64,000 nucleotides of DNA from assembly GCA_947034885.2 (NCBI GenBank), contig OX344751.2, positions 47,025,082 through 47,089,081 of the forward strand. Direction: 5' to 3'. The stretch comes from Thuidium tamariscinum. Lineage: Eukaryota > Streptophyta > Bryopsida > Hypnales > Thuidiaceae. This document shows, one piece after another, positions 21,466-51,367 of this stretch; the stretch's first letter is position 1, and each line of letters begins with the position of its first letter. Both the position numbers and the translations under genes were made by a program. The notes under the pieces were generated by a model, which was given only the letters and a program-made list of their open reading frames with translations, was not told where the DNA came from and did not search any database.

Positions 21466-21473
21466 GGCTCATT
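21466..21473. repeat. 8-bp target-site duplication, left copy (hAT)
   Basis: GGCTCATT immediately before the left terminus, repeated exactly at 51360-51367. Eight bases is the standard hAT duplication length. Both copies lie in exon sequence of the methyltransferase-like gene. Confidence 0.92.
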
Positions 21474-21639
21474 CAGGGTTGTTCTGCCGGACATTGCGAC
21501 ATCGCGACATTGCGACGTCACGAAACGTCCAGTAGACCCTCCGCGACGTCCATAAAAGTCAAATTTACCTTTGAATTTTTAAAAATTACCACGTGGAAAA
21601 TAATGCCACCTGGATGCCCGCGTGGCAAAAATTACGGCG

Positions 21640-22020
21640 CATGCGGGTAGGGCGACCGCGGGTAGGGGCGACCGCGGGTAGGGCGACTGCGGATAGGGCG
21701 AACGCGGGTCGGGGCGACTGCGGCTAGGGCGACCGTGGGTAGCGGTTTAGCGTGGGGGCGACCGCGCTAGGGGCGACTGCAGGATTAGGCGACCGCGGCT
21801 CACCCGAAGTCGCCCCATGCGCAGCCGCGGTCGCCCTTCAAGGACCCGCAGTCGCCCCCCCACATCCACGGTCACCCCATCCGCACCCGAGGTCGCCTTC
21901 TTCCAATACGCGGTCGCCCTAAGCCACAGTCGCCTCTAGCCGCAGTCGCCCTGGCGCCACCCGTGGTCGCCTCTGATTCGCACGTGCCCTGGATTTTACC
22001 CGTACTCGCGCCTATAAAGC
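21640..22020. repeat. GC-rich GGGCGACCGCGGGT cluster 1 (left end, before RING gene)
   Basis: More than 15 variants of GGGCGACCGCGGGT run in direct orientation to about 21800, then in inverted orientation (CCGC(G/A)GTCGCCC). TATAAAG at 22013-22019 ends the cluster, about 160 bp before the RING gene ATG. A double role as subterminal transposase-binding array and promoter is inferred from position. Confidence 0.85.
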
Positions 22021-22175
22021 CGTGCTCGCACAAGGCATTGGTACCTTAATTCTCCATCGAGGCTCTTCGTCTTGCATCCTTCATTGGCTGCATGCATTAA
22101 CTTCGGGTTGAATAATTACTTCTTTCTTCATCCATCCACGTTTCCTTATTGGTGTTTTGAACACCAACTTATCTC

Positions 22176-24637
22176 ATGGCTACAGAGCAGACCCCGGAGG
22201 TGCCCCCCGTTGTTCCACGCAATACACGAATCACTTATGCTGCGAGGAAGTCTATACTAGACAAAAATCGGAAACGCAGAGGCAATACTCATCGCAAGCG
22301 ATTACACGTGCTGAACAATCCTGATCACCCCGCATTTAAAGGCTGGAGCGAGGAGGAGGAGCCTTGGTCAATTCAAATGTGCGAAGACTACATTGAATGG
22401 TGTCACATTGGGAAATTGTTTCCGGCATGGCGCCATCATCACAATCGGCACACAAACAAGGCGAACTTGAAATATTGTGAAAATCCAGCTTTTGTTCAAA
22501 GGTGCATCGAAATTTGGCAAGTCCTCTACAACACTCCTTTTGTAGAAAGGAATGAAGTCACGCTTTCCATTGCTCGAGGAGCGTATGCTGAGGTGGTTCT
22601 AAAAAAAGAAGTGGATTGGTCCACCATCAAGGAAAGTATGTATGTTTCACCTCCAGAAATTGGATCAATACCAAGAGGAGTCTTGAAGTTTCCGGAGGGT
22701 GGACTTGGACCAATTCGAAAAGATCCTTTCGATAAGAGTGTCATTGAAGTTATCACATCGGAATCTGAAGAAGATAGCGATTCCGATGGCACACATGCTC
22801 CAAGGCCAATACGGATTGCTCCACAAATTGCCCCTGTACCAGTAATTCAAGATCCAGCTGTCAGAGGAGCTTCATCATCACGAGGACGGAAACCTAGACG
22901 CCCCTCTAAGGTTCCACGCTCGCCGAATCAAATCGGACTTGGATCGACCTCAGCAATAGTTCGCAGTCCATCATTACCACTGCAAAATGCGACCGATGTC
23001 TTCGACTTCGAACCAAATGATGAAATGCCTGTGGATGCGAGCGTTCCTGTTCTTTTAGCTCAAGGGGATTCAACCACGGCTCTCAATAAGGCTCTTGACC
23101 TCTTGAAGACCAAAGACACGACAATTGCTTCACTCCAATCTGATGTGAAGAAATTGCAATCAAATTTGGACCAGAAGAATGCTCTCATTTTAGAACAAGC
23201 CAAAGAACTTCAATGCCTTCGACAAAAACAACATGAGACGATTACTTTGTCAGATATGGACGAAGGTTTCATTGAACATGATCCTCATCATTTGGAGAGG
23301 GTCGTGGAAGACCTCACTAGCGGTCTCATTGAGTGTACTCCTCCTGGCAAGCGTGTCAAACGTTCTTCAGTATTGCCAGCTACGATTTTGCCTACCGTCA
23401 CGGAAGATGCTATCGTGGGGGCAGATGGTGTTCACGAGACTCAAGATTCACTTTCATTTCCATCACTTCCACTCCCAGTACCGGTACCATCTCCGAAGAA
23501 ACTAGGCCTTCGAGAGGAAAACAAGATGCTTCGTGCACGATTGAATGAGTTGGCAGCAACATACTATCACTGGAAGGTTGCGTGCATTCTCTCCGTGGAC
23601 AGATCACAGCAAGTTGCAAAGGAGTTGGACAAAATTTCAAAGAACTTCGTCGCAAATGCCCCTAAACGTGAGAATGGACTCACATCGTGGGCATTTATGG
23701 AGGACATGTTTCCTGAGAATATGCCTATGTTGAACACCCCTGGAAATGAAGGAATCAATTGGACACAGCTTGGTTGGGACCACAAAAACCAGATGTCGTG
23801 CCACGTAGATGAGAAACAACGACAACTTTTGTGGCCAAAGCCAGCAACTTTTGTTTTGGACCATACAAAATGTCCTATATGTCAAGAATCCTTCGGCCCT
23901 GAAGGAGGATGGACACTTGGATCATGCGTGCACGTATACCATCCTCAATGTCTAATTACACAATGCCTCATACGGAGACGTTGTGTTATTTGTTCAGCCC
24001 CATTCCATGATCGTTTATACGCCTTGTTCAACTTGATGACATATATGCCGCCCTCTTGGGAACACACAGGTGACACAACTCCGGAGACCAGATTATGGGG
24101 CCGAGACCTGATTTGGAGTTGGCGACAAGGCCAACATGATCAAGAAAAGGGCACAGATAGTTCTCAATTGAATTGGGAAACTGACCCAGAAGAGATCGTG
24201 CAAGTTGCATCCAAGCTCATGGGAAACGGTCCACAAAACGAGGGACGAAGGGCATTTTTTTTCCAATGCCTTGGTGGATTTTTCGATAAACAATCACAAA
24301 GCTTCATGTGGGGACGTCATCCAGAATGTCACTGTTGGGATTTTGAAGGAAAAAGAGTGTGCGACCAGACTGCAAATGCCTCTGAAGAAGATCTTACTAG
24401 TATGGCATTGCTTGACTCTACATATGGGCCCTACTACACGAGTCAAACAGTTGACTATTTATTGGAGAAACACTGAGGACCCTCCAAGCCTTGAAGGATT
24501 CCAACGTCTTAGAATCCATTCTAAATGCGAATGGACCAGCTTCACGCACTCGCGCCAAGCGCAAACTTGTGGTTGGAGAATCATCCAACCACGAGCGTGG
24601 TGAATCAAGCAATGCACATGAAGACCCAAATGTTTAG
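22176..24637 (+). CDS. cargo protein: N-terminal Cys/His domain, coiled coil, C-terminal RING finger
   Basis: The N-terminus has a basic stretch (KNRKRRGNTHRKR). A domain of about 110 residues follows, with conserved EWCHIGKLFPAWRH, NKANLKYC and FVQRCIEIW, ending AEVVLKKEVDWSTIK. Proteins at 26525-28021 and 39513-40910 share this domain. A Ser/Pro-rich middle precedes a coiled coil (ALDLLKTKDTTIASLQSDVKKLQSNL). The C3H2C3 RING finger starts at residue 566 (CPIC...CVHVYHPQC...CVIC) and resembles the RING at the window start, suggesting ubiquitin-ligase activity. The frame stops at TGA 24474-24476. A one-base deletion there is likely, because the -1 frame continues as a basic tail (RTRAKRKL) to TAG 24635-24637, and the HWRTL join matches QWRTL in the paralog. 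The start is the only Met ahead of the basic stretch, after a TATA box. Confidence 0.8.
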
Positions 24638-24639
24638 GG

Positions 24640-26520: not shown

Positions 26521-26524
26521 CACT

Positions 26525-28021
26525 TCAACGTGTGGTATTACAAAAATCTTCTTCTTTGGGTTCTGGACCTATCTCTTCAAGGTCTTTACGAGTAACACCT
26601 CGAGCTGTAGTACGCACTTTCCACTTCATCCAAGCGTGCTCAAATTTAATTTGTGAATCCAATTGTCCCACCTCTTTCACTGATTCCACAAATTTCTTCT
26701 CATGTAGCTTTACAAGCTTCCGCAATACTGATACTTCTTCTTCTGTGGTACCGTATTGAGGAGCCATAGCGAGAAAATCTAGCTCTGAGGCACATTGTAG
26801 AGCAGCAACGTAGTTGGTCTTTTCTTCCTCATCTATTTGCCGATTGAGGACTCTTACGTCATTGTGCACCCGCCAACGTTCGCGTTCAAGAATTCTCAAT
26901 TTTTGTTGAAGTATGGCATACACGTCCATTGGGTGTCCACGCTTCTCTTGTTTCTTCTTGTAATAAAGATCTCTACTTTTTTTCATAGAAGCTAGGCGCT
27001 CGTCATTTTCAGAGATGGCCCTATGTATGGCCTTCATCTCTTCCTTCAACATAGGGATGGTGTGTGCAGTTGTGCCAGCACTAAGTTCCAATGCTCTTAT
27101 TTGGCGCAATTCTAACACATGTCTTTTCACCAAATCCAAGGCCTCAATTGCTGAATCTAATTGAGCTTGGATAATGTCCACACTCTCTTCTCCATCACCT
27201 ACTCTCCCATCTTGGAGGCCTTCAACAATTTTTTGGCCTACTTCCATATGCTCATGACCCTCCCTGACTTGTTTTGGGATGTTTGATGGAGTCCCTCGGT
27301 CCTCCACCTTTCTTTTGCCTTTCTTGGCAAGTTCCAACTCCAAGGCCTTTTTTTGGTCGCCCAAACCAACATCCTCATCGTCGCTCTGGAAATTATACCC
27401 ATTGTATTCATGGGTGTATTCATTCGAGCTAGAATTAGGTGACCATACTACGTCTTCATCCAAAACAGCTAACTTCCCAGGCTTCACTCGTGCCAATGAC
27501 TTCTTCACATCAATTGTTTCACCTTCTGCCACAATAGATGCTTCTTCCACATGGTCTCCAACTAGAAGCTCCTTCAATGTTGACCAGTCCACTTTTTTCT
27601 TCAATATGTTTTCAGCATACACCATTTGGACCAGGAAGAAACAGAAATTGTCGTTTCTATATGGCTTGGTCTCCCCATACAACCTCATCCATACTTCCAA
27701 GCATCTGAGTGTGAAGTCTTCATCTTTGCAATATGCAAGATTGGCCTTGTTTTGCCCCAAATGAATCTTGTGGCGCCAATGTGGAAACAACTTGTTGATG
27801 TGGCACCAATCAACATATTTGTTGACTGTTTTGTAAGTCCAAGGCTCAGGTTCAGTCCTCCAACCCAAAAAAGCCTTGATTTTTGGATGTTGAAGGAGAG
27901 GCACTCGCTTCTTGTGACATTTCCCCTTCCTTTTATGGTCCTTGTCTCGAGCTGCCCTCTTCTGTGGTGAAGTCAATGGTTTGCCTGTACTAGGCTGGGC
28001 TGCTCCAGTCTCATCCTCCAT
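26525..28021 (-). CDS. cargo coiled-coil protein with shared N-terminal Cys/His domain
   Basis: A 498-residue open frame without stops. It begins with a basic stretch (KDHKRKGKCHKKR) and continues with the shared domain: YVDWCHINKLFPHWRH, NKANLAYC, FTLRCLEVW, AENILKKKVDWSTLKE. An acidic Ser-rich section and a Lys-rich patch (LAKKGKRKVEDR) follow. Most of the second half is predicted coiled coil (AQLDSAIEALDLVKRHVLELRQ; LQQKLRILERERWRVHNDVRVLNRQ; VLRKLVKLHEKKF). No enzyme motif is visible; it may be a chromatin-, DNA- or partner-binding protein. The promoter side carries a GC-rich cluster at 28.33-28.5 kb, and a 17-bp block identical to one before the kinase gene lies about 330 bp upstream. 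Function unknown. Confidence 0.75.
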   Translation of the reverse strand: MEDETGAAQPSTGKPLTSPQKRAARDKDHKRKGKCHKKRVPLLQHPKIKAFLGWRTEPEPWTYKTVNKYVDWCHINKLFPHWRHKIHLGQNKANLAYCKDEDFTLRCLEVWMRLYGETKPYRNDNFCFFLVQMVYAENILKKKVDWSTLKELLVGDHVEEASIVAEGETIDVKKSLARVKPGKLAVLDEDVVWSPNSSSNEYTHEYNGYNFQSDDEDVGLGDQKKALELELAKKGKRKVEDRGTPSNIPKQVREGHEHMEVGQKIVEGLQDGRVGDGEESVDIIQAQLDSAIEALDLVKRHVLELRQIRALELSAGTTAHTIPMLKEEMKAIHRAISENDERLASMKKSRDLYYKKKQEKRGHPMDVYAILQQKLRILERERWRVHNDVRVLNRQIDEEEKTNYVAALQCASELDFLAMAPQYGTTEEEVSVLRKLVKLHEKKFVESVKEVGQLDSQIKFEHAWMKWKVRTTARGVTRKDLEEIGPEPKEEDFCNTTR

Positions 28022-28325
28022 AACTATTGCTACCTGAGTACTATGCTACTCTATGGTTAACTTAACTAATTGTTCTACGACTAAAATGTTCTTTTCTAAA
28101 AACCTAAATCCCTAGAACAAGCAAACTACACATTTACAAACCTATATGCATTTACAAAATGTTTTTTTTATAAAAAAAAAAGGCACATACTCATACATAA
28201 CAGTATGCCAAGCATGTGCAGAGCTCGAGCGCAAAAATGGCAAATCCCGACGTGAAGTATGGAATCCCTTGCTCACGGGCACGCAATCAGCCACATCTAA
28301 GTGGGTGAAGGTCAATGCGCAAAGC

Positions 28326-28510
28326 AAGGGAGGTGGACTACGGGTCGGGGCGACTGCTTAAGTACCCGCAGTCGCCTAGGGCACATGCGGAAGGGCGACT
28401 GCGCATTCAAGGCGACCGCGAGTCCAGGAAGGTGCGCGTTCGTGGGGTGCGACCGCGGGTGCGCGACCACGGGTGCGCGTTTGCGGGATGGGCGACCGCG
28501 CCTTCGGGTT
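28326..28510. repeat. GC-rich cluster 2, upstream of the minus-strand coiled-coil gene
   Basis: Variants of GGGCGACTGCG, GGCGACCGCG and GCGACCGCGGGTGCG. The segment 28275-28368 (including GACTGCTTAAGTACCCG at 28352-28368) is closely similar to 34698-34796 before the kinase gene. Confidence 0.8.
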
Positions 28511-28519
28511 TGGGGCTTC

Positions 28520-31560: not shown

Positions 31561-31562
31561 AA

Positions 31563-32653
31563 GGGTGAATGCACGAAACACTTGTACTATTTGTTGCGTT
31601 TTTTTGGCTTGACCGCTTTAAGATGGCTCTAACTTTTGAATAAAAAACTAAGTGTCCAAAATAAAAAAACACTTCCTCGATATCTTGACTCAAATTATTA
31701 TTCTTATTTCTTACAAATTAAAAAAAAACATTTGATATTTAAAATTCAATTTTGTTAATTTGTCACACTTTGACATTGTGGGGTTTTTAGTACTATTTAG
31801 AACCCAGAAAACCGAATTTTGAGTTGAATATTTGAGTGGATATTCTATTAGTAGACTTGTAGCTTATCTCCAAAGGAATTATAAAAATAGTCATTTTTTG
31901 GATGTATAGAAGTCCACAAAGAGACCTTCTTTCTACTTGCTTTTTGAAACATATTAAACATTTTTTTGGTGATTTTCTTGGTCAAGCCTTATCACCAAAA
32001 AGTCTTCTCAAATGGCCAATTTTTAGATTTCATTAAATTTGTTTTTTCTATTTTTTACAAATTAAAATGTTGAAGTTGTATTTTTCTTCACTAGGATTTT
32101 GGACATAGAACACATAGAATTCCGGTGAAGAAAATACATACTTCAATGTTCTAATTAATAAAAAATAAAAAACATTTTTGAAAATAAAAATAAAAATTGG
32201 CCATTTGAGAAGATTTTTTGGTGATAAGGCTTGACCAAGAAAATCACCAAAAAAATGTTTAATATGTTTCAAAAAGCAAGTAGAAAGAAGGTCTCTTTGT
32301 GGACTTCTATACATCCAAAAAATGACTATTTTTATAATTCCTTTGGAGGTAAGCTACAATTCTACTAAAAAAACATTCTCTCAAAATTTCAGCTCAAAAT
32401 TCTTTTTTTTGGGTTCTAAATAGTACTAAAAACCCCTAAACTGGAATATGTGACAAAAAATTGGGGGCTATTTAAAAATAGTAAAATATTTTTTTTAAAT
32501 CTTCAAAAATTCTAAATGATGTATAATAGTTATGAGTACCCATTTTTAAAAATTTGAATCATTTGGAGCTAAAAAACATAAGTTATGGCTAAAAAACTAG
32601 TCACCACAAAACATGATGCAACACAGCAGTACAAGTGTTTCATGCAATCACCC
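31563..32653. mobile_element. 1.1-kb foldback (MITE-like) element
   Basis: Starts GGGTGAATGCACGAAACACT and ends with its near reverse complement. Most of the element is one long inverted repeat: about 130 bp at 31905-32035 is almost identical to the reverse complement of 32190-32335. It encodes nothing recognisable, though one arm gives a spurious minus-strand frame. A clear target-site duplication was not resolved (flanks TTAA and ATAA). Confidence 0.8.
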
Positions 32654-32948: not shown

Positions 32949-34604
32949 CTACAGGGGGGAATCGCGCAATACAAATGTTGGAGGCTTCATATACCATGGA
33001 GGCCCCAGGACCAAATTCACCACCTCTGTACATGTTGGTCTCTCCTTCAGATCTTCATTTTTGAGTTGGCCCACCTTCATAGCAAAATACCTACATGCAT
33101 CCATCGTTGTGAATGTCTCTTTGTCAAAAGGATACATATCCCCAATCTTCATAGCTTCCACCAGCTTTCCAATAGAATACGAGTCTGACTGCTTTGTATA
33201 TTTATGCCTCGATTGCATAATTGGTATGCTTGTATCCGAATTAGGTGGTCCAAATGTATAAAACAACTCTGGAGCCACCCACCATCGTCCCTCTTGTTGC
33301 TTCCATGTCTCTTCCTTGGTAGGATATCCATAATGCGATGGGGCTTTTTCGTTTACACGGCTTGTAATTCCGAAATCACAAATCCCAATGTTGATTATTT
33401 CATTTGAATAATCAGGATAGTGCAACAATACATTTCTCGGAGATAAATCGTTGTGTAGCACTGATGATTGGTGCATGAGGTGAGTCACATACACCAAGGT
33501 CCATGCCAACTTTGCCTTATGCCTTCGAAAAAGGCTAACTTCCTTTTGTTTCTCTGTAGGAAGTTGTCTAATTCGATGCACTTCGTGTCATTCAGTACTT
33601 GGTGACACCAGCTTATCCACATTCAGTAAGTCACCCAAATGACCTCCATTCCACCACAATGTATACGCTTCCATGGTAATTGAGTTTAAGGCAAAAAACT
33701 TAATTAAGCCTGCATGATTTAAAGGGCATGCCAAGGCCTCTACGGACCGCTCCACCCATTGATCACGCAAGTCCTTCGTTTTTGGCATTTTCCCCGCAAG
33801 AGCAATATTTGGTGGAATGGTATCTAGACCTGTTATTCGAACCTTTCGCACCTTTCCGTGGCCACCTTCACGAGAAAAACCACCGAGGGCCTCAACTTTT
33901 GCCGTGGGTGGAATCCATATGATACTCACTCCACCATCTCTTGCAAATGCAGCCTTCACAGCGTCATTTTTCCACTTGAAACCCCTCGATCCAAACTTTG
34001 ACAATCTCTTGGACGCAGTATGCCACCACTCCATCTTCGCACGAAATTCCTTTGCCTCTTCATCTTCCACTCGTCCTGTGGTTGGTGCACAGAACTCTAT
34101 CATCAATTTCTTGGTATTAAAAGTTACTGCCTGAATAGTATCAGTCATCCAATCACAAAATCTGGAATTGTACGTTAAGTCCACATCTTTGAAGTCCTCT
34201 GATTCATAACACTTGCTTAAGATTCGGGCCTCCAAATCCCCCGTCAGCTTCTCCGTGCCTGTTCCAGCATCCCTCAAATAGTTTGCCTCCAAAAATTGTA
34301 CACTTTTGCCAGCGTACCATTGAAGGCACACCTCGTATGCATACTTCGTATAACTTGAAGGAGGATATGTTGGATCCTTATCATGAGCAGACCTGGACTT
34401 CTTTTTCTTCAATCGAGCTTCATTCCCTGTTGTTTCGCTTGTAAATATAGGCTCTAGAAAGTGTTGTGGATCATCCAAATCCCAAAGGGATTTTCGCCTC
34501 AAGGTACTGGTACCTTGTGTGGGATTAGGCATTTCTGAGAATATTGGATGAGTATCCAAAACACCTTTGTGCCTCACGTCGCCATCTTCTATTGGGTTGG
34601 ACAT
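32949..34604 (-). pseudogene. cargo protein kinase with one in-frame stop
   Basis: One frame of about 550 codons interrupted only by TGA at 33588-33590. The first 200 residues are unfamiliar (YEVCLQWYAGKSVQFLEANYL; EWWHTASKRLSKFG). The kinase core begins with a glycine loop (GGFSREGGHGKVRKVRI) and the ATP-site lysine in IALAGKMPK. After the stop come the catalytic loop HNDLSPRNVLL (HND in place of HRD, with catalytic Asp and Asn kept), CDFGITSR (DFG), WVAPELFY (APE), the DSYSIGKLVEA helix and ERPTCTEVV. Ser/Thr kinase activity is therefore likely for the unbroken form. The stop lies between the N-lobe and the catalytic loop, so the product as read would be inactive. It could derive from CGA by one transition. 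A GC-rich cluster lies upstream (34.74-34.98 kb). Confidence 0.8.
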
Positions 34605-34739: not shown

Positions 34740-34980
34740 ATGCGCAAGGCCGAGGCAAGATGGCGAATGCGGTCCCGGAGACTGCTTAAGTACCCGAAGT
34801 CGCCCCAGGCGCGTGCGGATCCAAACGCGACCGCGGGTAGGCGACCTCGGGTGCGTAGGGCGACCGCGGGTAGGGCGACCGCGACTGGGGGCGACCGCGA
34901 CTGGAGGGCGACCGCGGCTGGGGGTGAACGCGGCTGGGGGGCGACAACGGCTGGGGGGCGACCGCGTTTGAGGAGCTCCC
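34740..34980. repeat. GC-rich cluster 3, upstream of the kinase gene
   Basis: Direct variants of GGGCGACCGCG(A/G)CTGGGGG. It contains GACTGCTTAAGTACCCG at 34780-34796, identical to the copy at 28352-28368. Confidence 0.85.
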
Positions 34981-34984
34981 TTAC

Positions 34985-35307
34985 TCTGAAGAAAGAGCTT
35001 CCTCCACGCAAGGGTGGGAAGGAGGTGTTTATATCGCAAGGCAATATCAAGGGAGTTGAGAATGAGAATTTTGCTCGGGAAGGCAATTGTGCTGTGCACT
35101 GCCAAGTGTCGAGATAATCCCGTGTCGTCGGAGCTGCAAGTGAAAAGTGCTCATCATGTTTTCAATCGAGTTTATGATGTCTACAACAAAAAACTTCTGA
35201 AGATGGATAAAATCGAGAAATGTCTCGTTGAAACTCGAACTTCAACCCTGCTGATAGAGCATTGCGGGACACTAGATGAAACCTATTTAGTAAATAGAAT
35301 ATTCTCT
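34985..35307. other. interval between two GC-rich clusters, no supported gene
   Basis: A plus-strand frame of 98 codons exists (35014-35310) but shows no family resemblance or conserved feature. Whether the cluster at 34.74-34.98 kb is bidirectional cannot be judged. Confidence 0.35.
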
Positions 35308-35520
35308 TAAGGGGCGACCGAGCCTGGAATGGTAGTGTGTTCTGACGCAACTTGTGGCACTGGCGATCGCCCTTGAGGCGCGGTCGCCCCTTACCCGCGG
35401 TCGCCTTACTTTCAGGGTTTGCAAATTTTGTTAAGCTTCTTCATGCAGAGGGCTTGCCCCTTTGGTTCAAAATAAATAAATAAATTGTGAAGCGTGGTCG
35501 CTCTAAAGGCGGTCGCTTTA
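35308..35520. repeat. GC-rich cluster 3b, not linked to a present gene
   Basis: GGGGCGACCGAGCC, GGCGATCGCCC, GGCGCGGTCGCCCC, ACCCGCGGTCGCC and later GCGGTCGC words. No coding unit follows on either side, so it may mark a lost gene. Confidence 0.65.
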
Positions 35521-35569: not shown

Positions 35570-37130
35570 CTAGTTTTTTAGTAAATGGAAAATCTCATTG
35601 TACTAAAATCTAACATTTAATAGAACAAAGCATTTGAGCCAAATGGAGTGAAGAATTAGAAGAGGTTATACCTTTGCCAAACTAATGCAAATCTTTGAAT
35701 GCAATTCAATGAACATTCTCCAACTATGAATTTTAAACCTCTAAGTGATTTGAATTTTGTTTTATCCATAATTGCTCTTTTGAATACAAGTAGTAGATTT
35801 TGAGGAAAAAAATGAATTGAGGCACATATAGTTGTAGTATCCTATATTATGCTAGTTTGAAAAGTGGTGGAGGAAATTTCAAATTTTTCTACCATGAGAA
35901 TTACCTTGCTATTAACATTTGAATTGGTTGAAATTCTTTTGAGGGCCGTGACATGTAAGAAAATCTGGAAGTTGCCCTTCATACAATCACATTTATATAA
36001 AACAATTGCCGTAAATGGTGGTGCTTATTTATACCAATGTTTAGAGGCAATTGATAATATACTTGAGAACTTTTTAACCATTTGGAAGTGTATAACATTT
36101 TGGGAAAACCATTAGAAAAGAATTGAACCCAAAAAGAGGCCTTGAGTTTTCTTACCAATTTTAGCACTAATTGGATGTAATTGCATGTAATTGCATGAAT
36201 ATGAGAGCAATCATATGTGGCATTACACCCACCACTTGGCATGTGCTCCATCCTTCATGAAAAAACCATCATGAGACAACCACCACTTGGCATGTATTCC
36301 ATCCTTCATGACGAAATCATCATGAGATTTATGATATCTTGAAGTTATATTGGGTAATGATGGTGAATTTTTGAATTCATAGTGCAATTCTTGGCCAATT
36401 AGTGAATTTAGAAGGCTCTTCCCACCCACTAATTTATGAGATCATGGAGATGGATTGAGTAATGATGACTAATTTTTGAATTCATCGTAGAATTCTTGAC
36501 CTAATTAGTAAGTTGTGAAGGCTCTTTCCACTCAAATTTTTGCATTACAAAGCGGCCTCTTTTTGGGTTCAAGTATTTTCTAATGATAGCAAGTAGATAG
36601 GAATATTGAATGATTTCAAAGACTAAGTTGTTAGTAGTTCAATTCTAGAATTGAAAATGCTAATTTCAATGGTTCAAATTTCAAAGAATTATCCTACACA
36701 TTATATTTTAATTATTGTAATAAATTTTGAATATTGAATTAAATGAAGAACTTTACAAACCATTGTACTATTTTTTATTTTTTATTTTTTGAACAAATGG
36801 GAGATCTATTGCATCCCAAATCCCTCTTAAAACTCGTGACGGATGCTACTATATGAGCCTAAGAATGTGAGTCCCTAAGACTAGAAGACGATTCACTTAT
36901 AATATACGTGTCTGGATCATAGAAAAGAGATTTCTAGTACACTTATGTTATACACACTTATATTATAGGGTATATGTTATAAACACGTTGAAATATTCTA
37001 TAGTTGTGGCATACCTATTTATACTCTCTTGATCCATAATTCCATAAGTGATAATATTATATTTTCTTTACCTTGATAATCTCTGCATTTACCTAGTTAG
37101 AACTTGTACGCTTATAATTTTAAGGAATTG
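35570..37130. repeat. large inverted repeat, left copy
   Basis: Diverged reverse-complement partner of about 41370-42700. Anchors include GCTACTATATGAGCCTAA at 36844 versus its complement near 41890, and GTAAATGG...TTGAGCC at 35581-35640 versus GGCTCAAATG...CCATTTAC at 42628-42700. AT-rich, non-coding. Confidence 0.7.
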
Positions 37131-39115: not shown

Positions 39116-39345
39116 GTGAACAACCTGTGGTCGCCCAAGTCAGAAGGCGGGAAATTCAGAAATAAATGACCTCGTAAAAGGACCCGCGGTCGCCCAGCCG
39201 CGGTCGCCACTGCTGTGAAGGACCCGCGGTCGCCTTTCCCGTGGTCGCCCTTCGCGCACTCGCCCCACCCGCAGTCGCCCTCGCACGGAACGCACGCGCC
39301 CCAGGCGACATCAGGTTTATAAGTGGTCGCCCCATCCGCATTCGC
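39116..39345. repeat. GC-rich cluster 4 with TATA box, upstream of second coiled-coil gene
   Basis: At least eight variants of ACCCGCGGTCGCCC, in the opposite orientation to cluster 3. TTTATAAG at 39316-39323 lies about 190 bp before the chosen start codon. Confidence 0.85.
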
Positions 39346-39512: not shown

Positions 39513-40910
39513 ATGGACGCCACCCGGAGGAACCGTAAAGCCAAAGGCAAGATGCAAAAAAGACAACGACACGTCCTTGTGGACTCTAATGTCGTGGCTC
39601 ATGGAGGTTGGGAGAGGATCGAAGGCTTTTGGACCGCGACCACTTGTAGGGCATTTGTACAATGGTGCCACATCGATAAGCTTTCCCCCTATCATCGACA
39701 CAAAATCCACTTGAAGTCAAACATGGCAAATCTTCATACTTGCACTCACGATGGATTTGTACAAAGATGTATCGAAGTATATCGATACTTGTACAAGACA
39801 CGAAGTGTGCCTCGGAATGAAATTCCCTTGTTTCTGTGTGAGATGGTGTACGCGGAAGTTATTCTTCGACGAAGGGTGGATTGGAGCACCATTAAGGGAG
39901 CAAAGCTTGTCCAAAAACCGTCAACCAAGGACATTCCTAGGGCGGGTCCCTCCCAAAACCCACGTGAAGGTTTAGGGAAAAAGATTTTCATCAAGAATGA
40001 AGTTCCGAACAATGAGTTCGTGTGGTCGGATCACAAAAGTAGTGAAGATGAGTTGATGGATGTTGGACTGCCACATGTGGGTGAGACATTGGCTAATTTG
40101 GAGCCTTTGGAGGAGGGGGAAGTGGAGGCGGGCCCCACGTTGACATTGCCTTCATTGGAAGGGATGCCAAGAATTGAAGGATCTGTTGAAGCTGCAAGTG
40201 TGGAGGCCAACGAAGATATTCCATTGAACGACTTTTATAAAGTTCAATTGAAGAGTGTGCTTGAAGAGTTGGATAGAGCAAATGAAGAGAAAAGGACTTT
40301 GGAGGAAGGGGCAGTGACTGATACTTCTGATGATGTTCCAACCCTTCAAGCCCTCATTGAATTGGGACGAATTCAGTTGTCCAAGCAACATGAGCAAATC
40401 TTGAACTTGGAAGCATTCTATCTGAACTTCTCCGTTTCAGGGGGTGAAGGTTCTAGTTCTTCAACTAATAAATTTGTAGAAGAACGATTGGCTAAACTCA
40501 AGGAAGATTGTCACATCGAAGCTGACTGCTTGGAAAATGAAAAAAGATCTCTTGAAGGTGCACAATCAAAATTACGTGACCTTCAGAAAATGAAGGACAA
40601 AGCCCCTCTTGATCGTATTGTTGATATACAAGATTCTGAAGATCATGAGAGGCAACATGAGACATTGAAGTTGGAAGCAGAGGACCTAAAGAAGAAGTTA
40701 GCCCATGCTCTCGCATTGGAAAGTGATGTGGCCGGGGAAGTGGAGAAGAAGAAGATGAATTTGCTCAATGCACTGAATTTGAAGAAAGAATACATGAAAA
40801 ATAAATGGCGGGATTTTCCTCTTCAATCCAATTTGGATAGTGCCTACAAGGAGGCGAAGAAAGACTTGGAAGCTAAGAAAAGGCTAAAGACAGATGAACA
40901 AAGCAAGTAG
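39513..40910 (+). CDS. cargo coiled-coil protein 2 with shared N-terminal Cys/His domain
   Basis: An open frame of 465 codons from the Met at 39513. An in-frame Met at 39435 exists, but the intervening residues look like a translated leader, and the 39513 Met directly precedes the conserved basic start (TRRNRKAKGKMQKRQRH). The shared domain follows: FVQWCHIDKLSPYHRH, NMANLHTC, FVQRCIEVY, AEVILRRRVDWSTIKG. After an acidic linker, the C-terminal half is coiled coil (SVLEELDRANEEKRTLEEG; ENEKRSLEGAQSKLRDLQKM; KLEAEDLKKKLAHALALE) and ends in a Lys-rich stretch. The domain layout matches the protein at 26525-28021, so the two are probably duplicates. No catalytic motif. Function unknown. Confidence 0.75.
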   Translation: MDATRRNRKAKGKMQKRQRHVLVDSNVVAHGGWERIEGFWTATTCRAFVQWCHIDKLSPYHRHKIHLKSNMANLHTCTHDGFVQRCIEVYRYLYKTRSVPRNEIPLFLCEMVYAEVILRRRVDWSTIKGAKLVQKPSTKDIPRAGPSQNPREGLGKKIFIKNEVPNNEFVWSDHKSSEDELMDVGLPHVGETLANLEPLEEGEVEAGPTLTLPSLEGMPRIEGSVEAASVEANEDIPLNDFYKVQLKSVLEELDRANEEKRTLEEGAVTDTSDDVPTLQALIELGRIQLSKQHEQILNLEAFYLNFSVSGGEGSSSSTNKFVEERLAKLKEDCHIEADCLENEKRSLEGAQSKLRDLQKMKDKAPLDRIVDIQDSEDHERQHETLKLEAEDLKKKLAHALALESDVAGEVEKKKMNLLNALNLKKEYMKNKWRDFPLQSNLDSAYKEAKKDLEAKKRLKTDEQSK

Positions 40911-40919: not shown

Positions 40920-41365
40920 TGATCTTTTGGGGGGCTAGCAATGCTAGCATTTTTTGGAGGACTTATGACTTTTGTAAACATCTATATATAAAAAGGCTAC
41001 TATTATTTTTTAGTATTATTTTGCATACTTGGGGTGTTTCATTTCTATCATTGATGTGTATGGATGCAAAAGAATTCATATTCCTTTGTTTGCATGTTGA
41101 TGGGTTTTTTTTAAACATCCAAAATGCTCATTCAATCTTTCAAAAAGCATCTCCATAAAATGCTCAATATGTAATATGTAGACATTTCAAATTTTTATGA
41201 AGAAAGTGTCCATATCTAAATTTCATAAAATAGATGTTTCTTTCAATTAATACATTTTTGTACATGCAACTTTCATATTCCTTTTTAGTTTTTAGGAATA
41301 GGATAATATTTCATATGCTTCATCAATTTTCTTTAAATTATAAGCATACAAATTTAAACTGTGCA
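40920..41365. other. 3' flank of second coiled-coil gene
   Basis: AT-rich, without a supported gene. Confidence 0.4.
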
Positions 41366-41369
41366 TATT

Positions 41370-42700
41370 AGAGGTTATGAAGGTAAAGAAAATAGAATAT
41401 TATCACTTATGGATGACAGATTATAATGTTTGATCACGACTTCACGAGTGTGTTAAATTTACAAAACACATGCACAATCTTACAATCCTCTTTTCATATG
41501 TTCAATTTAAAAAATTTGGTCACCGAAAAAATGAGATACAAACATTGGAGATGCATACATTGGAGACGCATAACCCCAATAAGTTTTGGGCTTTGAAATA
41601 AGTGCTCTACAAATTTTCAAAATAAATTTAAAATGTGAATTTCTTAATTTGATTTTGTTACTAAAATGCTAGCATGAGAAGATAGAAATGCAAGTATGTA
41701 AGCCTTGATTATAGATATAAGTAGGTATCCCACAACTATTGAATATTTCAATGTGTTTATAACATATGCACCAATAATATAAGTGTGTATAGTATAATCA
41801 CACTAGAAATCTCTAATTATAAAAAGTTTCTATGATTTAAACACCTATACTATAGGTGAATAGTCTTGGGGATTCACATTTTTAGACTCATATAGTAGCA
41901 TCTGTCATGATCGTTAAGAGGTATTTTGATTAAGGGTTGTTAGGGATTTCCTAGTTTTCTAATCAACAAATGCACAATAAATTCTGTAAAGTTCTTCATT
42001 TAATTCAATATTCGAAATCTATAACAAAAATTGAAATATTAGATGCAGGATAATAATTACCATTGGAATTGGCATTTTCAATTCTATATAATTCAACTCT
42101 TAACAACTTACTATTTGAAATCATTCTATATTCCTATGTACTGACATATATTTTCCAAAAATGTTATACACTTGTAGTTTGCCTAAAAAAAATTTCAAGC
42201 ATCTTATGAATTGCCTTTGAACATTGGTAATTTGGTATAGAAAAGAAACACCATTACGACAATTATTTTATACAAATGTGATTGTATGAAGTGCAACTTC
42301 CTAGGTTTTCATACATCACAAGGCCCTCAAAAGAATTACAATCAATTCAAATGTTAATATCTTGGCAATTTTCATAGTAGAAAATTGGTTAACTTTCCTC
42401 CACATCTTCTCAAACTAGTGTAATATAGGATCTTACAATTATATGTGCCTAAATTCATATTTTTTCCTAAAATCTATTACTTGAATTAAAAATAGCAATT
42501 GTCAAAACTACCTGATTCAAATCACCTAAAGGCTTAAAATTCATTTTTGGAGTGTGTCCATTGAATTGCATTCAAATATTTGTATTAGTTTCACTATAGT
42601 ATAACTTATTTTTATTGTTCACCCCTTCTGGCTCAAATGTTTTTGGTCTAAATGTTCATTTCTAATACAATGGTGTTTGCCATTTACTAAAAGATATATG
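41370..42700. repeat. large inverted repeat, right copy
   Basis: Reverse-complement partner of 35570-37130; see that entry for anchors. The two copies flank the second coiled-coil gene and its promoter, with about 4.2 kb between them. Confidence 0.7.
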
Positions 42701-43720: not shown

Positions 43721-43729
43721 TATTTCCAC

Positions 43730-44395: not shown

Positions 44396-44399
44396 CATA

Positions 44400-44845
44400 T
44401 TGAGATTTGCTTCACCCTTACAAGAAATTGCCATTGAAAACTTTGAAGATGACACATTGTATCTTCTTAGTCCTTTAGGGATTAAGCATTTGAAATATCA
44501 TGAAATTGAGGGTTGTCCTCCTCCATAATTGAGCTCTCATAGAACTCAACATTCCTAAGTAAAAGTATGATATTTTTTATTGAGGTTTGAAGGTTCATGA
44601 TTTCTTGGAGAAAGAGCCAATAGGGCTTGGTGGTGAAGGGGTTGGAAATACCTTTAAAAGCTTCTATGTGCATGAAATGGTAAATCACTTTGGAGTAACT
44701 ATTGCTACATAGTAATTTAGATGCTGCTTTTAATGAGAATGAAGTGGGATATAATGTGGAACTAGGAGGAATCTCCGAATCTCTCAAATAATACCTGTTA
44801 CAGCTAGGTTAATAACTGTCCACCTTGCTCAGGCCAGCTGGTCCT
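44400..44845. other. AT-rich DNA, no gene
   Basis: A minus-strand frame at 44482-44787 has no recognisable features. Runs into the large GC-rich cluster. Confidence 0.35.
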
Positions 44846-45460
44846 GTAAGGCGACCGCGTGTACAGCAACCGCGCTTTCCAAAAATTGAAAACCTGCAAA
44901 GGTGCGACCGGCCGACCGCGGGTCAGGGGCGACCTCGGGTGCCAGAACTGCCGCCCGCCACCTCCATGCGCGGTCGCCCGTCCGGGGAGTGCGACCGCGC
45001 TTGGGGCGACCGCGGGTCAGGGGCGACCGCGGGTCAGGGGCGACCTCGGGTGCCAGAACTGCCGCCCGACACCTCCAAGCACGGTCGCCCGTCCATGCAC
45101 GGTCGCCCGACTGGGGAGTGCGACCGCGCTTGGGGCGACCGCGGGTCAAGGGCGACCTCCGGTGCCAGAACCTAAACCGTCACCTCCATGCGTGGTCGCC
45201 CATCCATGCGTGGTCGCCCATCCATGCGCGGTCGCCCGTCCGGGGAGTGCGACCGCGCTTGGGGCGATCGCGGGTCATTTTTTGCAGTTCCTCACCCTGT
45301 CCCGCGGTCGCCCCACTACCCGCGGTCGCCCTCGTACGTGCGGTCGTCCTTGCAGGCGCCGTTGCCCCCATTACCCGCGGTCGCCCTGCACCCGCGGTCG
45401 CCCTGTTCACCCGAAGTCGCCCTGTACCCGCAGTCGCCCCTGTGGCGACAGAGTATAAAG
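44846..45460. repeat. GC-rich cluster 5 with TATA box, upstream of hAT transposase
   Basis: The largest cluster. It contains about three tandem units of roughly 105-110 bp (GGGGCGACCTCGGGTGCCAG ... GGGGAGTGCGACCGCGCTTG). After about 45300 the orientation inverts to ACCCGCGGTCGCCC. TATAAAG at 45454-45460 lies about 230 bp before the transposase start. Confidence 0.88.
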
Positions 45461-45686
45461 CTGCAGCTGAAACACTGAGGGATTACCTTGCTTCAGTGAT
45501 TAGACTCTAGCCTTGAACCTTCGAAAGAGGCTTCTTGCGGATGTTTTGGTTCATTAGAGGGCAAGAGCCTTGCTTTGAGGGGGTTTAAAAACCCTCTCAC
45601 AGTAGGTAGCATTGTCATAACTTTTTCCTCGTTATTGGATTCTTGGATCGATTTTTTGGGGGTGAAACTCATTGTGGATTCACACA

Positions 45687-48600
45687 ATGGTTGTCCCAGG
45701 TGGCGGTCAAGGTCGGAACGATACGCGTAGGGCTACAAAAGATTGGGACCCTTGGCTTGTACCGTGCGTTCCAAATGATAATTCATCCTATGCTCGGAAA
45801 TGCGTGTTTTGCGGGTGGAGCAAAGTCTTTGTGCGGAAAAGGGCATTTAGTCACTTTGGATATGGTGGCTCGGCAACAGCAGACCGTTGTCCAAAAATCC
45901 CTAGAAGTGCACGTGAAAAGTTTATGACTTGCAATGGAAACGTTCCAAAAGCCATGAGCTTTGAAGAATTGTTTGAAACACCATTTGTGGGCAATGAGGC
46001 CATTGGTGCGGCACAATCCTTCATTCAAGAGGTAGAGGGTGGTGAGGTGGGTGGTTCTTCAAATCCAACGGGTCCAACCGGCCCGACAAACCTTACCCCA
46101 GATTCAGTGGATTCTACTCCAAGTACGGTTGACAGAACAGGAAGCCGCCCTGTGGTTTCTCGTCAAAGAAGTATGGATGAAGCATTACAAATAGGCTTGA
46201 GACAAAAGTTGGATGCGATGTGGGCTTCATTTTTTTATGAAGCCAATATTGCATTCAACGTCACGCGACACCCTGCATTTATAAATGCAGTGAAGGAAAC
46301 TGCAGCAGCTGGAATTTTATATCGTCCACCAGCATTCAACGCGTTGCGTACCAGGATGATTGATGTGAAGAAAGAAGTTGTCCAAAAAATGGTCAATGAC
46401 CGGACAAAGAACTCTATTGCGCAATATGGAGCAACTATTTGTTCAGATGGGTGGTCAGATACCAATAGGCGACCGTTGATGAATGTGATGCTCGTTTGTC
46501 CAGCAGGGGATGTGTTTTTGGGTCAGAGGACAGTACGGGAGCGAAGAAGGACATTGCCTACACGACAGCTTTAATGTCGAAGTACATAGACAAGGCCGGT
46601 CCTTCAAATATTGTGCAATTGTGTACAGACAATGCTTCAGTAATGATTGGAACTATGTCATGTTTGTTACTGAAATATCCCCACATGTACAAACAAGGGT
46701 GTGCGGCTCACATCTTGGATTTGCTTTTGGAAGATTGGGGAAAGTCTCAAACGATGAAGGATTTGGTAAGTGAGTGTAGGACAATGGTGAAGCATATCAG
46801 GAAATACCATTTCACTATGGCTTTGTTTCGGAAACATTCTCCAAACAAAATGCTTAGGCTGCCTACTTTGCCACGGTTTGCCACGGTTTGCCACCAATTT
46901 CCTTATGGTAGACCGCCTGCTCGATTGCAAACAAGCTTTGCAAACCGTGGTTGCAGATGACGCTTACATGACCTTCGAGTTCAGTTTGCAGAATCGGACT
47001 AATGGAGGTACCATTAGGCGCAAAGCAATGGATGTTCGGCTCAACATTCATTCTGAAAGGTTTTGGTCAAAATGCAAGAATTTCGTGTTTATGATAGAGC
47101 CAATACTCGTTGCTCTACGACACTTTGATGGCAAAAAACCAGCAATGCCAAAAGCTTGGTTGATAATGTTCGAGTTGAAGAAACACGTGTATACTCTCAG
47201 GGATCCTCCATTTCTTTTAGACCCTGTGGTTGCAACGCGTTACGAGAAGAAATTTGAAGCTCGTTGGAAGTTAATGCAAACGGACCTCCACTATGCAGGA
47301 GCACTCTTGAATCCGTTTTTGGCAGGAGTAGAAGAAATTCAAAACAATGGGGTGGCCAAAGCAGCTTTGAATCGAGTCATACGAAAACTAGCTCCATCAT
47401 TAGGAGTTTCAGTGGTCGTGGCAATGCAAGAGCTTGTCCAATTTTAGGAGAAGACAGGGCCATTTGATCCCCGAGAAGAGGTTCTCGACATCACACAGAC
47501 CAATTTAGAACCTCATCAATGGTGGAATCATGTAGGCGGCGATGCTCTTCCGAAGATTGCAAAGAGAATTCTAGGGTTGACTTGTTCAGCATCTTCATGT
47601 GAACGAAACTGGAGCATGTATTCATTCGTGCATAGTAAAACGCGAAATCGTTTGACCACAAAGAAGGCTCAAGATTTGGTGTACATTTATGCTAACTGCC
47701 ACTTGGAACGTCAAAAGCGTGGGTACAATGCTGCTCAATTTTATGAAAGGGTCCTCGTGGATGGAGACACTGATGAAGAGAGGGACGAGCCTATGCCTTC
47801 AGGATCGGAGGACGAGGGTTATTTTGATTTTATCGAAGATAATTTAGTCCGAAGAGAAGAAGAAGATCTCTTGCGCGATCACAATGAATGGGCAGATATG
47901 GTCCCACCTCCACCAAGTCCACCGCCATATCGATATGGAAACACATTTGCAAGTGGCAATGATGCGGAAGGTGTTGCTGAGGAAGAACTTTTTCGTTCTC
48001 CAAAGCGGAACCCTGATGATGCGTGGGTCGGAAATTGGGGCACAGTTTCACCACGAACTGCGGCAAGAACACCTTCTGACAACAACGAACAAGCAGATAA
48101 TCAAATGCCTGCCTCAGATGTTCAAGAAACATCTCCAGTACCAACACGTATTCCTTCAAGCAGAGCAATGAATATTGGAAACATTGCACCAATCAATGCG
48201 GGAATTGAAGCAGAAGAAGAGGTGGATCACATTGAAGAGGTTGTAGAAGAAGTAACTCCTATTTCGGTAGCAATGAATTCACCGACCATACAAACAACGG
48301 AGGCAGCTGAGTATGATTCAGATGCGCCACTGAATACCATCCTCAACCGTAGTCGGAATGTTTCCTTGACTCGAGGTGGACATACAGGGCAGACTACAGT
48401 CAGAAGGTCAGTCACAACTCCTTCTATAAGGGGCCGTGTGCCCAGAGGGGAAGATACAAGCCAAGGTAGAGTCAGAAGATCGGCCCCTAGTTCATCGACA
48501 AGGACGCCTTTAGATGGAGGTCCACTATCCAGCATCAATGAAGAAGTCCCTGAGTCCGCTCCACAAGCCACCCAACCAACTCCAGTGTCTAAGCCAAGAG

Positions 48601-49040
48601 AAATATCGTTGGAAGAACGACTACGCAACAGCAACAATAGAGACAGAAGTAAAAAAAGGCGCATTAGAAGAGTAGATGAAAGGACACACAGACATCCGAA
48701 GCGCGCAAATCAAATTGTGGAACCTTGTAGGCTTGGGGCAGGGTGCTCCACACAAGCGGTCCAACAATCAAGCCAATCAATAGCGGTTCAAGCAGGTCCT
48801 GAATCTGTAGTTGATGGAATTATTGATGCAACGCGTCCCACAAAACGACTAGTCCAGACTGCGATTCCTGGTGGTCAAGACATAGTTGTGCGGAATTTGA
48901 CCTCGAAGGTGGAAAGAGAAATACGACCAGAACCAATAACAAGAGAAGAGGACGAGAATGACAGCTCAAGCCACGATAGCGACACAGACGCTGGTTACGC
49001 ATCGCGTGAAGATACGGACCTTGATGCTGACGAAGTGTAG
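45687..49040 (+). pseudogene. hAT-family transposase of the 30-kb element (two frameshifts, one stop)
   Basis: From the N-terminus: a BED-like zinc finger (CVFCGWSKVFVRKRAFSHFGY...RC), a catalytic domain with ICSDGWSDTNRRPLMNVML, the LCTDNAS aspartate block and QGCAAHILDLLLEDW, and a C-terminal dimerisation domain with IAKRIL...SASSCERNWSMYSFVHSKTRN. A long acidic, Arg/Ser-rich tail follows. Three lesions are visible: a one-base deletion near 46523 (frame 0 to 2), a 10-bp tandem duplication CCACGGTTTG at 46871-46890 that returns to frame 0, and TAG at 47445-47447. Each side is conserved against the transposase at 2638-9813. The gene is therefore probably inactive and the element would need an outside transposase. 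The start at 45687 is the Met just before the zinc finger; an upstream in-frame Met exists at 45672. Confidence 0.88.
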
Positions 49041-50875
49041 AACGATTCAGATTTTTGTTTGTAACTAGATATTAGTCCAATTGTTTGGAAGGTAAATTAG
49101 TCCCACTGTATCTTCCAAAAATGTTTTTTTGAAAAGATTTCTAGCGGAAGTTTATAGCCTAGTAGTTTAGTACCTTACATATTGATATGTTGTAGCACCT
49201 TACTAGGCATTTTCATCGTATTTCGACATATTAACTTTGGGGTTATTTTATTATTTTCTAGCCTTTGGTTTAGTTGGTTAACCTCACAGATTTTTAACTA
49301 AGTATATTTCTACCCAAATTGCTCCAAAATTGCGTTTTGTAATACAAGTGCAATGTTTTTGAAATTTTTGTTGTCACATATGAAATGGTGAGATATTCTT
49401 GTGGGATGGTTTCAGAAGATGTGGAGAAAATCTTCACCATGTACATTGCAAGATATTAACATTTGTACTAGCAAAACCCCTTTTTTTCCGGCAATTGGCC
49501 AATTGCCCTTGACAAGGTGACATTAGTATAAAAAACACTCAAAATTGATGGTTATTCTTTAAACTCATATTAGAATCAAAGTGGTATGTATGCTCTACAT
49601 TCTACAAATTTGTAATCATTTGTAATTGTTCAACATATGGGAGAAAAAACATTAAGTTAGAAACCAACAAAAAAATAGAAAATGCTTGAAAATACTAAGT
49701 TGTCAACAAATTATTTATAAAAATGACAAATGCCAATTACTTTAGTTAAAGTATTGTAAGAAACAATCTTCATCCAATGTTTCACTTTTTTTTCAAAAAT
49801 ATAAAAAATTGAATGGAATAAAGAATTTCAAACTTTTTTGGTAGAGTAGAGATTCTATAAGTACCCATTGACTACCCCAAACTAAAATTCCTCATAACTT
49901 TTGACTCATGTATTGAAATGGAATGATTCGAAGGTTTACACATAGATAAAAATCTAATAAAGATATTTCAAATTTTTATTTCTTAATGTCACAATTTCTA
50001 AAGAAGTTTTTTTTTGGTGCCCGGGCTACGCACAATTTTAAAGGAAACAACACGTCATGTCCTAACTTTTTGATCGTGTAGTCAAAAGGGATTATATTGT
50101 TGGTCCTTTTCCCCTAAGTTGCGGGCACATGTTGTGTCAAAATTTCAAAGAAAAGAAAATTAAATTCAATAGGTAGTAAGATCCCTAGAAATGCAATTCG
50201 GGGCTTTACGGGTTAATGATTGTGTCAATTCAATTCAATACACCACAAACACAAAGGTCCTTTAGAGGCACACCCTCACACCCCTACAAGAAAAAAATTC
50301 AAAATGTATAATATATTGTTGTTATTTAAAATGAAAACTACAATGAAGTGTAGACCTGTAGTAATAATCAAGGATTGTAGTTTAAAAGGTCACAATGCTA
50401 TAAATAAACTTTGAAAATGGTAGTTATATTTTAAAACCATTCTATAAGGCAAGCTTGGTATACACTTCAAACAAAATTAAAGTCTATTGGAATTGTACAT
50501 TATATAGGAAAAAGATTGTAGAGTACATTTTGAGAAGCGATAAATTGACCGGGGTTATGCTTGTAAAGCCCTTTCATCCCGTTTTTTTTAATCATAAACT
50601 TTTTAGATTAGACTTGTAAACGGAGGGTTGAATGACTTCAAATCTCTTTGGCAATTTGGACACTATAGTGATTAAACATTATAATCTTTCAATCCATAAG
50701 TGATATATGTTTTGTTCTCCTAAATGATCTCTGACATGTCTAGTTTGAATTAGAATGGTTACATTTTAAATTTTCTTTCTTAAAGCTCATCATGAAGTAA
50801 TTTTTTTCTTTACTTTAGAAATTAGAACAAATTCCTAGAAACTCCCCCAAAGGCCTTGAGCATTTAGGGGTAAAA
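49041..50875. other. 3' non-coding region of the hAT element
   Basis: AT-rich. The part 49800-50030 resembles one arm of the foldback element at 10.5-11.6 kb. No gene supported. Confidence 0.5.
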
Positions 50876-51185
50876 AACACCCGCGGTCGCCATCAAAGAC
50901 AGAGGCGTGGTCGCCCTGCACCCGAGGTCGCTCCTAACCAGAAGTCGCCCTTCTCTTGTACCCGAGGTCACCCTATACCCGAAGTCGCCCTTCCATTGCA
51001 CCCGCGGTTGCAAAAGAGACGCAGTCGCGCTGGATTTTTAACCCGCGGTCGCACCTGAGCCCGGTACCCGCGGTCGCCTCTGCACCCGCTGTCGCCTACC
51101 CGCTGTTGCCCTGAAAATCGGATGCGCGGTCGCCCTTACCAGAGACGCGGTCGCCCCACCCGTAGTCGCCCTGCCTCGCTTTCCA
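50876..51185. repeat. GC-rich cluster 6, right subterminal
   Basis: About a dozen variants of ACCCGCGGTCGCCC in one orientation, ending about 175 bp from the right terminus. Together with cluster 1 it gives the element GC-rich arrays at both ends, consistent with hAT subterminal transposase-binding repeats. Confidence 0.85.
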
Positions 51186-51359
51186 CGTCAGCGTGGATAG
51201 CCTGCCACGTAGGCAAAAACTTCTTACTTCGCGGTAAAAAAATTTACCCTTGCGCGACGGGACGGGACGGGGTAGCGACAGGTTGTCTTATACGACACGC
51301 GACATCGGACGTCTAACACGACGCCGAAACCCAAAAATATGTCTAACAGAACAACCCTC

Positions 51360-51367
51360 GGCTCATT
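51360..51367. repeat. 8-bp target-site duplication, right copy (hAT)
   Basis: GGCTCATT, identical to 21466-21473, directly after the right terminus. Confidence 0.92.

Follow-up and report, generated by a model that had tools for sequence, protein, structure and literature searches.

The stretch analysed here (the window) comprises 64,000 nucleotides of the moss Thuidium tamariscinum (contig OX344751.2, positions 47,025,082 to 47,089,081 of the forward strand), and it contains a giant transposable element of the hAT superfamily at window positions 21474-51359. This element is bounded by terminal inverted repeats of the short CAGGG type that is expected of hATs (CAGGGTTGTTCTG on the left and GAGGGTTGTTCTG on the right, with a match at 12 of 13 positions), and it is flanked by an exact 8-bp duplication of the target site, GGCTCATT. 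Within it lie a hAT transposase gene, four cargo genes that encode a RING protein, two coiled-coil proteins and a protein kinase, and six arrays of a short repeat (Table 1). An earlier note, made from the letters of the window alone, had proposed these ends, the duplication, a length of 29,886 bp, an internal hAT transposase and this cargo. On re-reading of the window the ends, the duplication and the length were exact to the base, and all the proposed cargo genes were present.

Table 1. Features of the giant hAT element; positions are those of the window
Feature	Position	Strand	Basis
Left target-site duplication, GGCTCATT	21466-21473	.	Sequence reading, end-pair scan
Left terminal inverted repeat, CAGGGTTGTTCTG	21474-21486	+	End-pair scan; other copies begin likewise
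Repeat array 1, 14 sites, upstream of RING gene, also near left end	21652-21970		
RING gene, 766 aa in window copy: shared N-terminal domain, predicted coiled coil, RING finger	22176-24476	+	
Coiled-coil protein 1, 498 aa, shared N-terminal domain	26525-28021	-	Open reading frame, domain alignment
Repeat array 2, 5 sites, upstream of coiled-coil gene 1	28366-28501		
Protein kinase gene, in-frame stop at 33588-33590 in window copy	32949-34604	-	Pkinase above Pfam cut-off
Repeat array 3, 9 sites, upstream of kinase gene	34827-35404		
Repeat array 4, 5 sites, upstream of coiled-coil gene 2	39184-39278		
Coiled-coil protein 2, 465 aa, shared N-terminal domain	39513-40910	+	Open reading frame, domain alignment
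Repeat array 5, 18 sites, upstream of transposase gene	44851-45437		
hAT transposase (DUF659 and hAT dimerisation domain), broken in window copy	45687-49040	+	Pfam
Repeat array 6, 8 sites, right subterminal	50881-51154		
Right terminal inverted repeat, GAGGGTTGTTCTG	51347-51359	- (read on minus strand)	End-pair scan
Right target-site duplication, GGCTCATT	51360-51367	.	Sequence reading, end-pair scan

The window was scanned for identical 8-mers at least 60 bases apart that border inverted 13-bp ends. Seven pairs matched at 11 or more of the 13 positions, and two of them, the giant element and a fold-back at 31788-32428, matched at 12. The 20 Markov-shuffled controls yielded 13 pairs in total at 11/13 but no pair at 12/13. 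Taken by itself and allowing up to three mismatches, the end pattern was not enriched in the window (17 observed against 17.12 expected).

The genome (363 Mb in 19 contigs, in which the window is C3:47025082-47089081) was then searched with both ends. A left-end query of 250 bp returned 54 rows, 41 of which were used as left-end matches; the 13 rows that were dropped comprised one short row merged with its neighbour and 12 short internal repeat matches. On the right, 40 matches were used. Since 40 of 449 left-end candidates and 40 of 391 right-end candidates were scored, the copy numbers given here are lower bounds. A correctly oriented right end was located 29.1-37.2 kb from 25 of the 41 left ends, so that the family has at least 25 two-ended copies; for 22 of these left ends (window included) the partner was identified by paired end matches, and for three more by fetched sequence. 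No misordered or misoriented pair of ends was found within 60 kb. The paired copies span 29,057-30,034 bp in 21 cases and 33,217-37,199 bp in the other four. When 40 kb were fetched from five left ends, an element was found in all five (29,926, 33,217, 33,321, 29,355 and 30,034 bp). Every one of them has an exact 8-bp duplication of its own and inverted ends that match at 12-13 of 13 positions; the right ends of three of these lie outside the 40 scored right-end matches. Analysis of the 60-base junctions of the 19 further pairs revealed an exact 8-bp duplication in 18 of them, and terminal inverted repeats that matched at 13/13 in 15 pairs and at 12/13 in four. Hence, an exact duplication, as is typical of hAT elements, was present in 24 of the 25 paired copies.

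The earlier note had anticipated several full elements with similar cargo, and had named ends that occur with unrelated partners as the outcome that would speak against a single element. As described above, both ends pair repeatedly with each other, and the six copies that were read throughout (the window copy and the five fetched ones) carry the same five genes, with every gene region retained to 99-100%. The 19 other pairs were read at their ends, and the constancy of the cargo thus refers to six copies. A unit of ~30 kb with hAT ends and duplications has spread as one, and because independent copies carry duplications of their own, a misassembly at 21.47 or 51.36 kb is disfavoured. An empty site was also found: the flanks of the copy at C8:5,630,340, joined with one duplication removed, correspond to window positions 3155-4154 with 96.2% identity over 1000 columns and without a gap, this copy being inserted in a relative of a second hAT transposase gene of the window (see below). 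For the copy at C1:18,004,497, the flanks align across the junction to a further stretch, L025, with 75% identity and 18 gap positions. At C7:2922192-2922614, ~420 bases hold two left ends of the family in head-to-tail order, perhaps a nested or aborted insertion.

Both domains of the transposase, DUF659 and the hAT dimerisation domain, exceeded the Pfam cut-offs, in agreement with the proposed internal hAT transposase. The dimerisation domain (PF05699) scored 32.0 bits in the window copy and 31.3 bits in another copy, against a cut-off of 21.4 bits. The gene of the window copy is broken by two frame changes and by an in-frame stop (47445-47447). From an internal ATG, a transposase of at least 965 amino acids with both domains is open in one of the six copies, and from an ATG further upstream it is open in none of them. 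Comparison of another copy's transposase with the Hermes transposase yielded a weak match (E 0.015). On inspection by eye, the transposase shows candidate motifs for a catalytic DDE triad.

The RING protein is open at 824 amino acids in three of the six copies, coiled-coil protein 1 at 498 in three, the kinase at 551 in one and coiled-coil protein 2 at 465 in four; further insertions interrupt the RING gene in the copy at C8:16.53M and the transposase gene in the copy at C1:18.0M. The match to the RING finger was under the Pfam gathering score (22 against 27 bits), and seven of the eight metal-ligand positions were invariant or nearly so in 12 aligned sequences. In the kinase, the positions that we take to be the catalytic residues were invariant in 15 aligned sequences. 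The RING protein and the two coiled-coil proteins have ~150 N-terminal residues in common, with 43% identity between the RING protein and each coiled-coil protein and 38% between the coiled-coil proteins. In Pfam scans of the element proteins this region corresponded to no family, and it was named the WCHI domain, from a conserved string. The structure model of coiled-coil protein 1 was weak (predicted local distance difference test, pLDDT, 67) and helical, and its top Foldseek rows were mostly long helical proteins.

The repeat arrays are built from the motif GCGACCGCGG, which was counted with at most one mismatch. The window has 60 such sites, 59 of them inside the giant element, whereas 0.40 were expected from shuffles, and all six copies read have six arrays of this kind, which together hold 51 to 71 sites per copy. 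In the window element, 51 of the 59 sites lie no more than 1 kb upstream of the five gene starts. This was matched by none of 20,000 random placements and by 38 of 2,989 circular shifts, all of which lay between -206 and +160 bp from the true place. At least three sites upstream of all five genes were obtained in 0.055% of the random placements and in 65 of the 2,989 circular shifts. The arrays change fast between copies: per aligned kb, 6.11 insertion/deletion events were counted in the arrays, as opposed to 0.62 in the rest of the non-coding DNA and 0.29 in coding sequence, and substitutions amounted to 3.0%, 0.57% and 1.04%, respectively. The contrast was smaller for the fraction of columns with bases in gaps (0.189, 0.044 and 0.199), where the high coding value probably reflects nested insertions. 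Fast-changing tandem arrays of a short motif in non-coding DNA, a feature of the VANC type discussed below, were therefore found in the giant element. Contrary to the usual expectation, coding DNA diverged more than other non-coding DNA (1.04% against 0.57%), which CpG-methylation decay in the GC-richer genes may explain.

All pairs among the six copies are 98.95-99.27% identical, and the six copies form a star-like burst. Of the 622 singleton changes in gap-free columns, 439 were C-to-T or G-to-A transitions, and 175 of these fell on CpG, a pattern that would fit the decay of methylated, silenced DNA. The ratio of nonsynonymous to synonymous polymorphism (pN/pS) was 0.43 for the kinase and coiled-coil protein 2, 0.63-0.65 for coiled-coil protein 1 and the RING protein, and 0.80 for the transposase. 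Because pN/pS among the six copies lies in this range, selection on the cargo within the burst appears to be weak or relaxed, and the case for a function of the cargo rests on conserved relatives and on architecture.

Relatives of the RING protein, the kinase and coiled-coil protein 1 were searched among environmental proteins (E<=0.001); for the RING protein and coiled-coil protein 1, the candidates that share most words were the ones scored. We found at least 19 relatives of the RING protein, 47 of the kinase and at least 11 of coiled-coil protein 1, with identities of 28-87% (40-78% for coiled-coil protein 1), and many of them cover most of the query. The RING relative P0004 and the coiled-coil relative P0074 both come from contigs of 4,937 bp, and the kinase relative P0022 and the coiled-coil relative P0071 both come from contigs of 6,460 bp, though under different sources, which suggests that such equal-sized contigs may hold neighbouring cargo genes as in the giant element. 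P0027 and P0068 also share a contig size, but 2,045 bp cannot hold both proteins, so that this coincidence is due to chance. The sole genomic relative found, contig L001 (4,906 bp), carries an open RING homologue of 801 amino acids with 38% identity. L001 is filed under the cyanobacterial metagenome-assembled genome (MAG) AVDCRST_MAG81, and the kinase relative P0054 is named after a Bacilli MAG; L001 is probably a stray eukaryotic contig, and both are probably contamination of these MAGs. On L001 there are 15 sites of the motif GTCCGCGCCCC (up to two mismatches), 11 upstream of the RING gene, three near the right end and one in the gene. Hence, L001 repeats the layout of an array upstream of a gene with a motif different from that of the window element: with up to one mismatch, no GCGACCGCGG site was found on L001 and no GTCCGCGCCCC site in the window element. 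The only CAGGGTTGT of L001 (up to one mismatch), at 4821-4829, forms an outward hAT-like end ~0.5 kb past the RING gene, and neither a left end nor a second copy of the would-be duplication was found on this contig. Pattern scans of 2.9 million IMG/VR viral contigs with the RING and kinase alignments revealed no relative, and no match was obtained with part of the kinase against phage records or with the open 551-aa kinase against plasmid records.

Other repeats are nested in the giant element. The fold-back seen in the end-pair scan extends over 31759-32457, with 340-bp arms that are 86% complementary, and long diverged inverted arms (35627-37084 and 41370-42643) flank coiled-coil gene 2; both structures are also present in the five other copies. 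An insertion of 476 bp (36110-36585), bounded by inverted ends of 32 nt, is missing at that spot in the five other copies read, and a similar piece lies elsewhere within the element in one of them. This insertion looks like a young, small non-autonomous element nested in the giant one.

When the flanks of the window element were joined and read by eye on the minus strand, an open exon running to a GT, an intron-like stretch running to an AG and a next open exon were observed. Because the joined flanks restore one open exon, it seems that the giant element was inserted into a host-gene exon and split it; a Pfam scan of the two putative host exons gave no match. The second hAT transposase of the window (2620-9219) has DUF659 and the dimerisation domain, with zf-BED just under the cut-off, and it is broken up by unrelated reading frames at 4841-6895. 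The extra DNA of the copy at C8:16.53M holds a reading frame that starts almost like the window frame at 4841, and the latter is therefore probably part of another mobile element. Among the repeats listed, palindromes that have CTCGGATCCGAG at their centre and GGGGGTC / GACCCCC at their ends lie at 20326-20653, 53607-53963 and 59775, all outside the giant element.

The paired ends, the duplications and the constant cargo support the giant cargo-bearing class II element that had been proposed. We consider it probable that this is a 29.9-kb hAT transposon with at least 25 two-ended copies, which carries four genes besides the transposase, is likely moved by the transposase of its own family and likely activates itself through its arrays. 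The family transposase would cut at the CAGGGTTGTTCTG ends and re-insert the element, leaving 8-bp duplications, and broken copies such as the window copy would move only in trans. A model for the role of the cargo is offered by VANDAL elements, which are of the MULE (Mutator-like element) type, unlike the hAT giant. In Arabidopsis VANDAL, according to the available part of the source, the element-encoded protein VANC recognises a short motif in non-coding tandem arrays, and its target repeats are reported to change fast (PMC5735166). The giant element resembles what that part describes in its short motif, in its fast-changing arrays and in a motif that differs between related elements (PMC5735166), a likeness that concerns the arrays. 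By this analogy, the cargo is most likely a regulatory kit owned by the element that would work like VANDAL/VANC anti-silencing, because there are arrays before every gene, these turn over fast, L001 has a different motif and three of the proteins form a family. The three WCHI-domain proteins would bind the GCGACCGCGG-type arrays, and this binding would protect all five promoters and the right end from host silencing, as VANC does for VANDAL. Factors of the host or of the element that restrain expression or transposition would be the targets of two further activities, ubiquitin ligation by the RING protein and signalling through the kinase. A more far-reaching version, to which we give somewhat less than even weight, is that the element has a regulon of its own, in which a new DNA-binding family encoded by the element reads a single repeat code that stands before all five genes and at the ends, the RING protein and the kinase disarm silencing, and the codes differ by lineage.

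Several results weigh against the single element or against its proposed workings. Sixteen of the 41 left-end and 18 of the 40 right-end matches had no partner among the scored matches, and of the 25 paired copies one, at C5:29744326, lacks a target duplication and may have arisen by recombination between two copies. In a Pfam scan of two pieces of the transposase, no BED finger reached E<=0.1. A stop or a gap affects at least one gene in all five copies that were compared with the most open copy, and pN/pS pooled over the 15 pairs is moderately low at 0.43-0.80. The model of coiled-coil protein 1 gave no Foldseek match at E<=0.001 and hence no recognised DNA-binding fold, and that of the RING protein (pLDDT 48) was too poor for a fold search. 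Finally, the layout of an array before each gene could be explained if each gene had arrived as a module with its own array.

In a fuller form of this last possibility, the arrays are subterminal repeats bound by the transposase, and the giant is a fusion of smaller hATs, each with a gene and an array. hAT elements have subterminal repeats near their ends, and array motifs are also found near both ends of the giant element; the RING gene of L001, at ~0.5 kb from a hAT-like end, would suit a small element with one gene. However, no other CAGGG-like end pair with an 8-bp duplication was found inside the giant element, and all 25 paired copies span at least 29 kb. We regard the fusion as rather unlikely, and it may describe the origin of the giant element, not its present state. 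It is improbable that the cargo is passive, i.e., that it consists of host genes captured by a hAT as in Pack-type elements and has no role in transposition. The pN/pS values and the stops and gaps just mentioned would agree with this, but the same cargo genes and arrays are present in all six copies read, the RING, kinase and coiled-coil 1 proteins have relatives at 28-87% identity, many of which span most of the query, several cargo genes have a domain and an array type in common, and L001 has this layout too, with a motif of its own. An element of the Teratorn/Maverick type, virus-derived or composite, that had acquired hAT ends could account for the large size, the several unknown genes and the relatives in environmental sequence, but it is very improbable, as no viral core gene was found among the open reading frames scanned against Pfam and no relative in the viral contigs. 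Misassembly or a chance pairing of unrelated ends, which the 12/13 match of the window ends, the unpaired end matches and the C5:29744326 pair might suggest, has a negligible probability in view of the 24 exact duplications in 25 paired copies, the lack of misordered pairs and the empty site for the C8:5,630,340 flanks, and the genome-wide end pairing rules out chance pairing and a nesting of unrelated elements.

With the hAT superfamily (Ac, Tol2, Hermes and hobo) the giant element shares the 8-bp duplications, the CAGGG-type ends and the dimerisation domain, and it differs from the usual hATs, which are a few kb in size, in its length of ~30 kb, its four extra genes and its six repeat arrays. 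The available part of the description of ToxhAT, a 14-kb fungal transposon that carries ToxA, presents another hAT-named element with extra genes. ToxhAT is about half the size of the giant element, which differs in having many near-identical copies in one genome and a regulatory-looking cargo. The earlier note had compared the element with large cargo transposons of fungi, and this comparison holds in concept, since the Starships, as far as the available part of their description goes, are also large and carry cargo genes. It does not hold in kind: Starships are driven by a tyrosine recombinase and are not hATs, whereas the ends, the duplication and the transposase of the giant element are of the hAT type, and no tyrosine-recombinase captain gene was found among its open reading frames scanned against Pfam. 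Giant KDZ, EnSpm and Sola-1 elements of up to 31.7 kb are described for brown, green and red algae in the available part of another source (PMC12477816). These algal giants (up to 15-32 kb) are likewise class II elements with accessory genes and often with broken transposases, but they belong to superfamilies other than hAT; that part of the source gives hAT as 0.05% of the Ectocarpus genome and does not name it among the giants (PMC12477816). No KDZ, EnSpm or Sola-1 transposase was found among the open reading frames of the element scanned against Pfam. Giant cargo-bearing class II elements are thus already known in other superfamilies, and a hAT near 30 kb was not met in our literature searches, whose coverage was partial and hence gives no proof of absence.

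According to the available part of a review, DNA transposition becomes less effective above 6 kb of cargo (PMC6431247). The family described here indicates that a hAT element can span 30 kb and five genes and yet reach at least 25 copies, well past that 6-kb mark. Its near-identical copies, with cargo and promoter-side arrays, are a ready system for studying how a transposon keeps all its genes expressed, and they are equally suited to asking if repeats specific to the element are recognised by its own proteins and if systems of this kind evolved more than once. The regulon version, if true, would mean that anti-silencing arose independently in the hATs, a superfamily for which the literature searches found no such system described.

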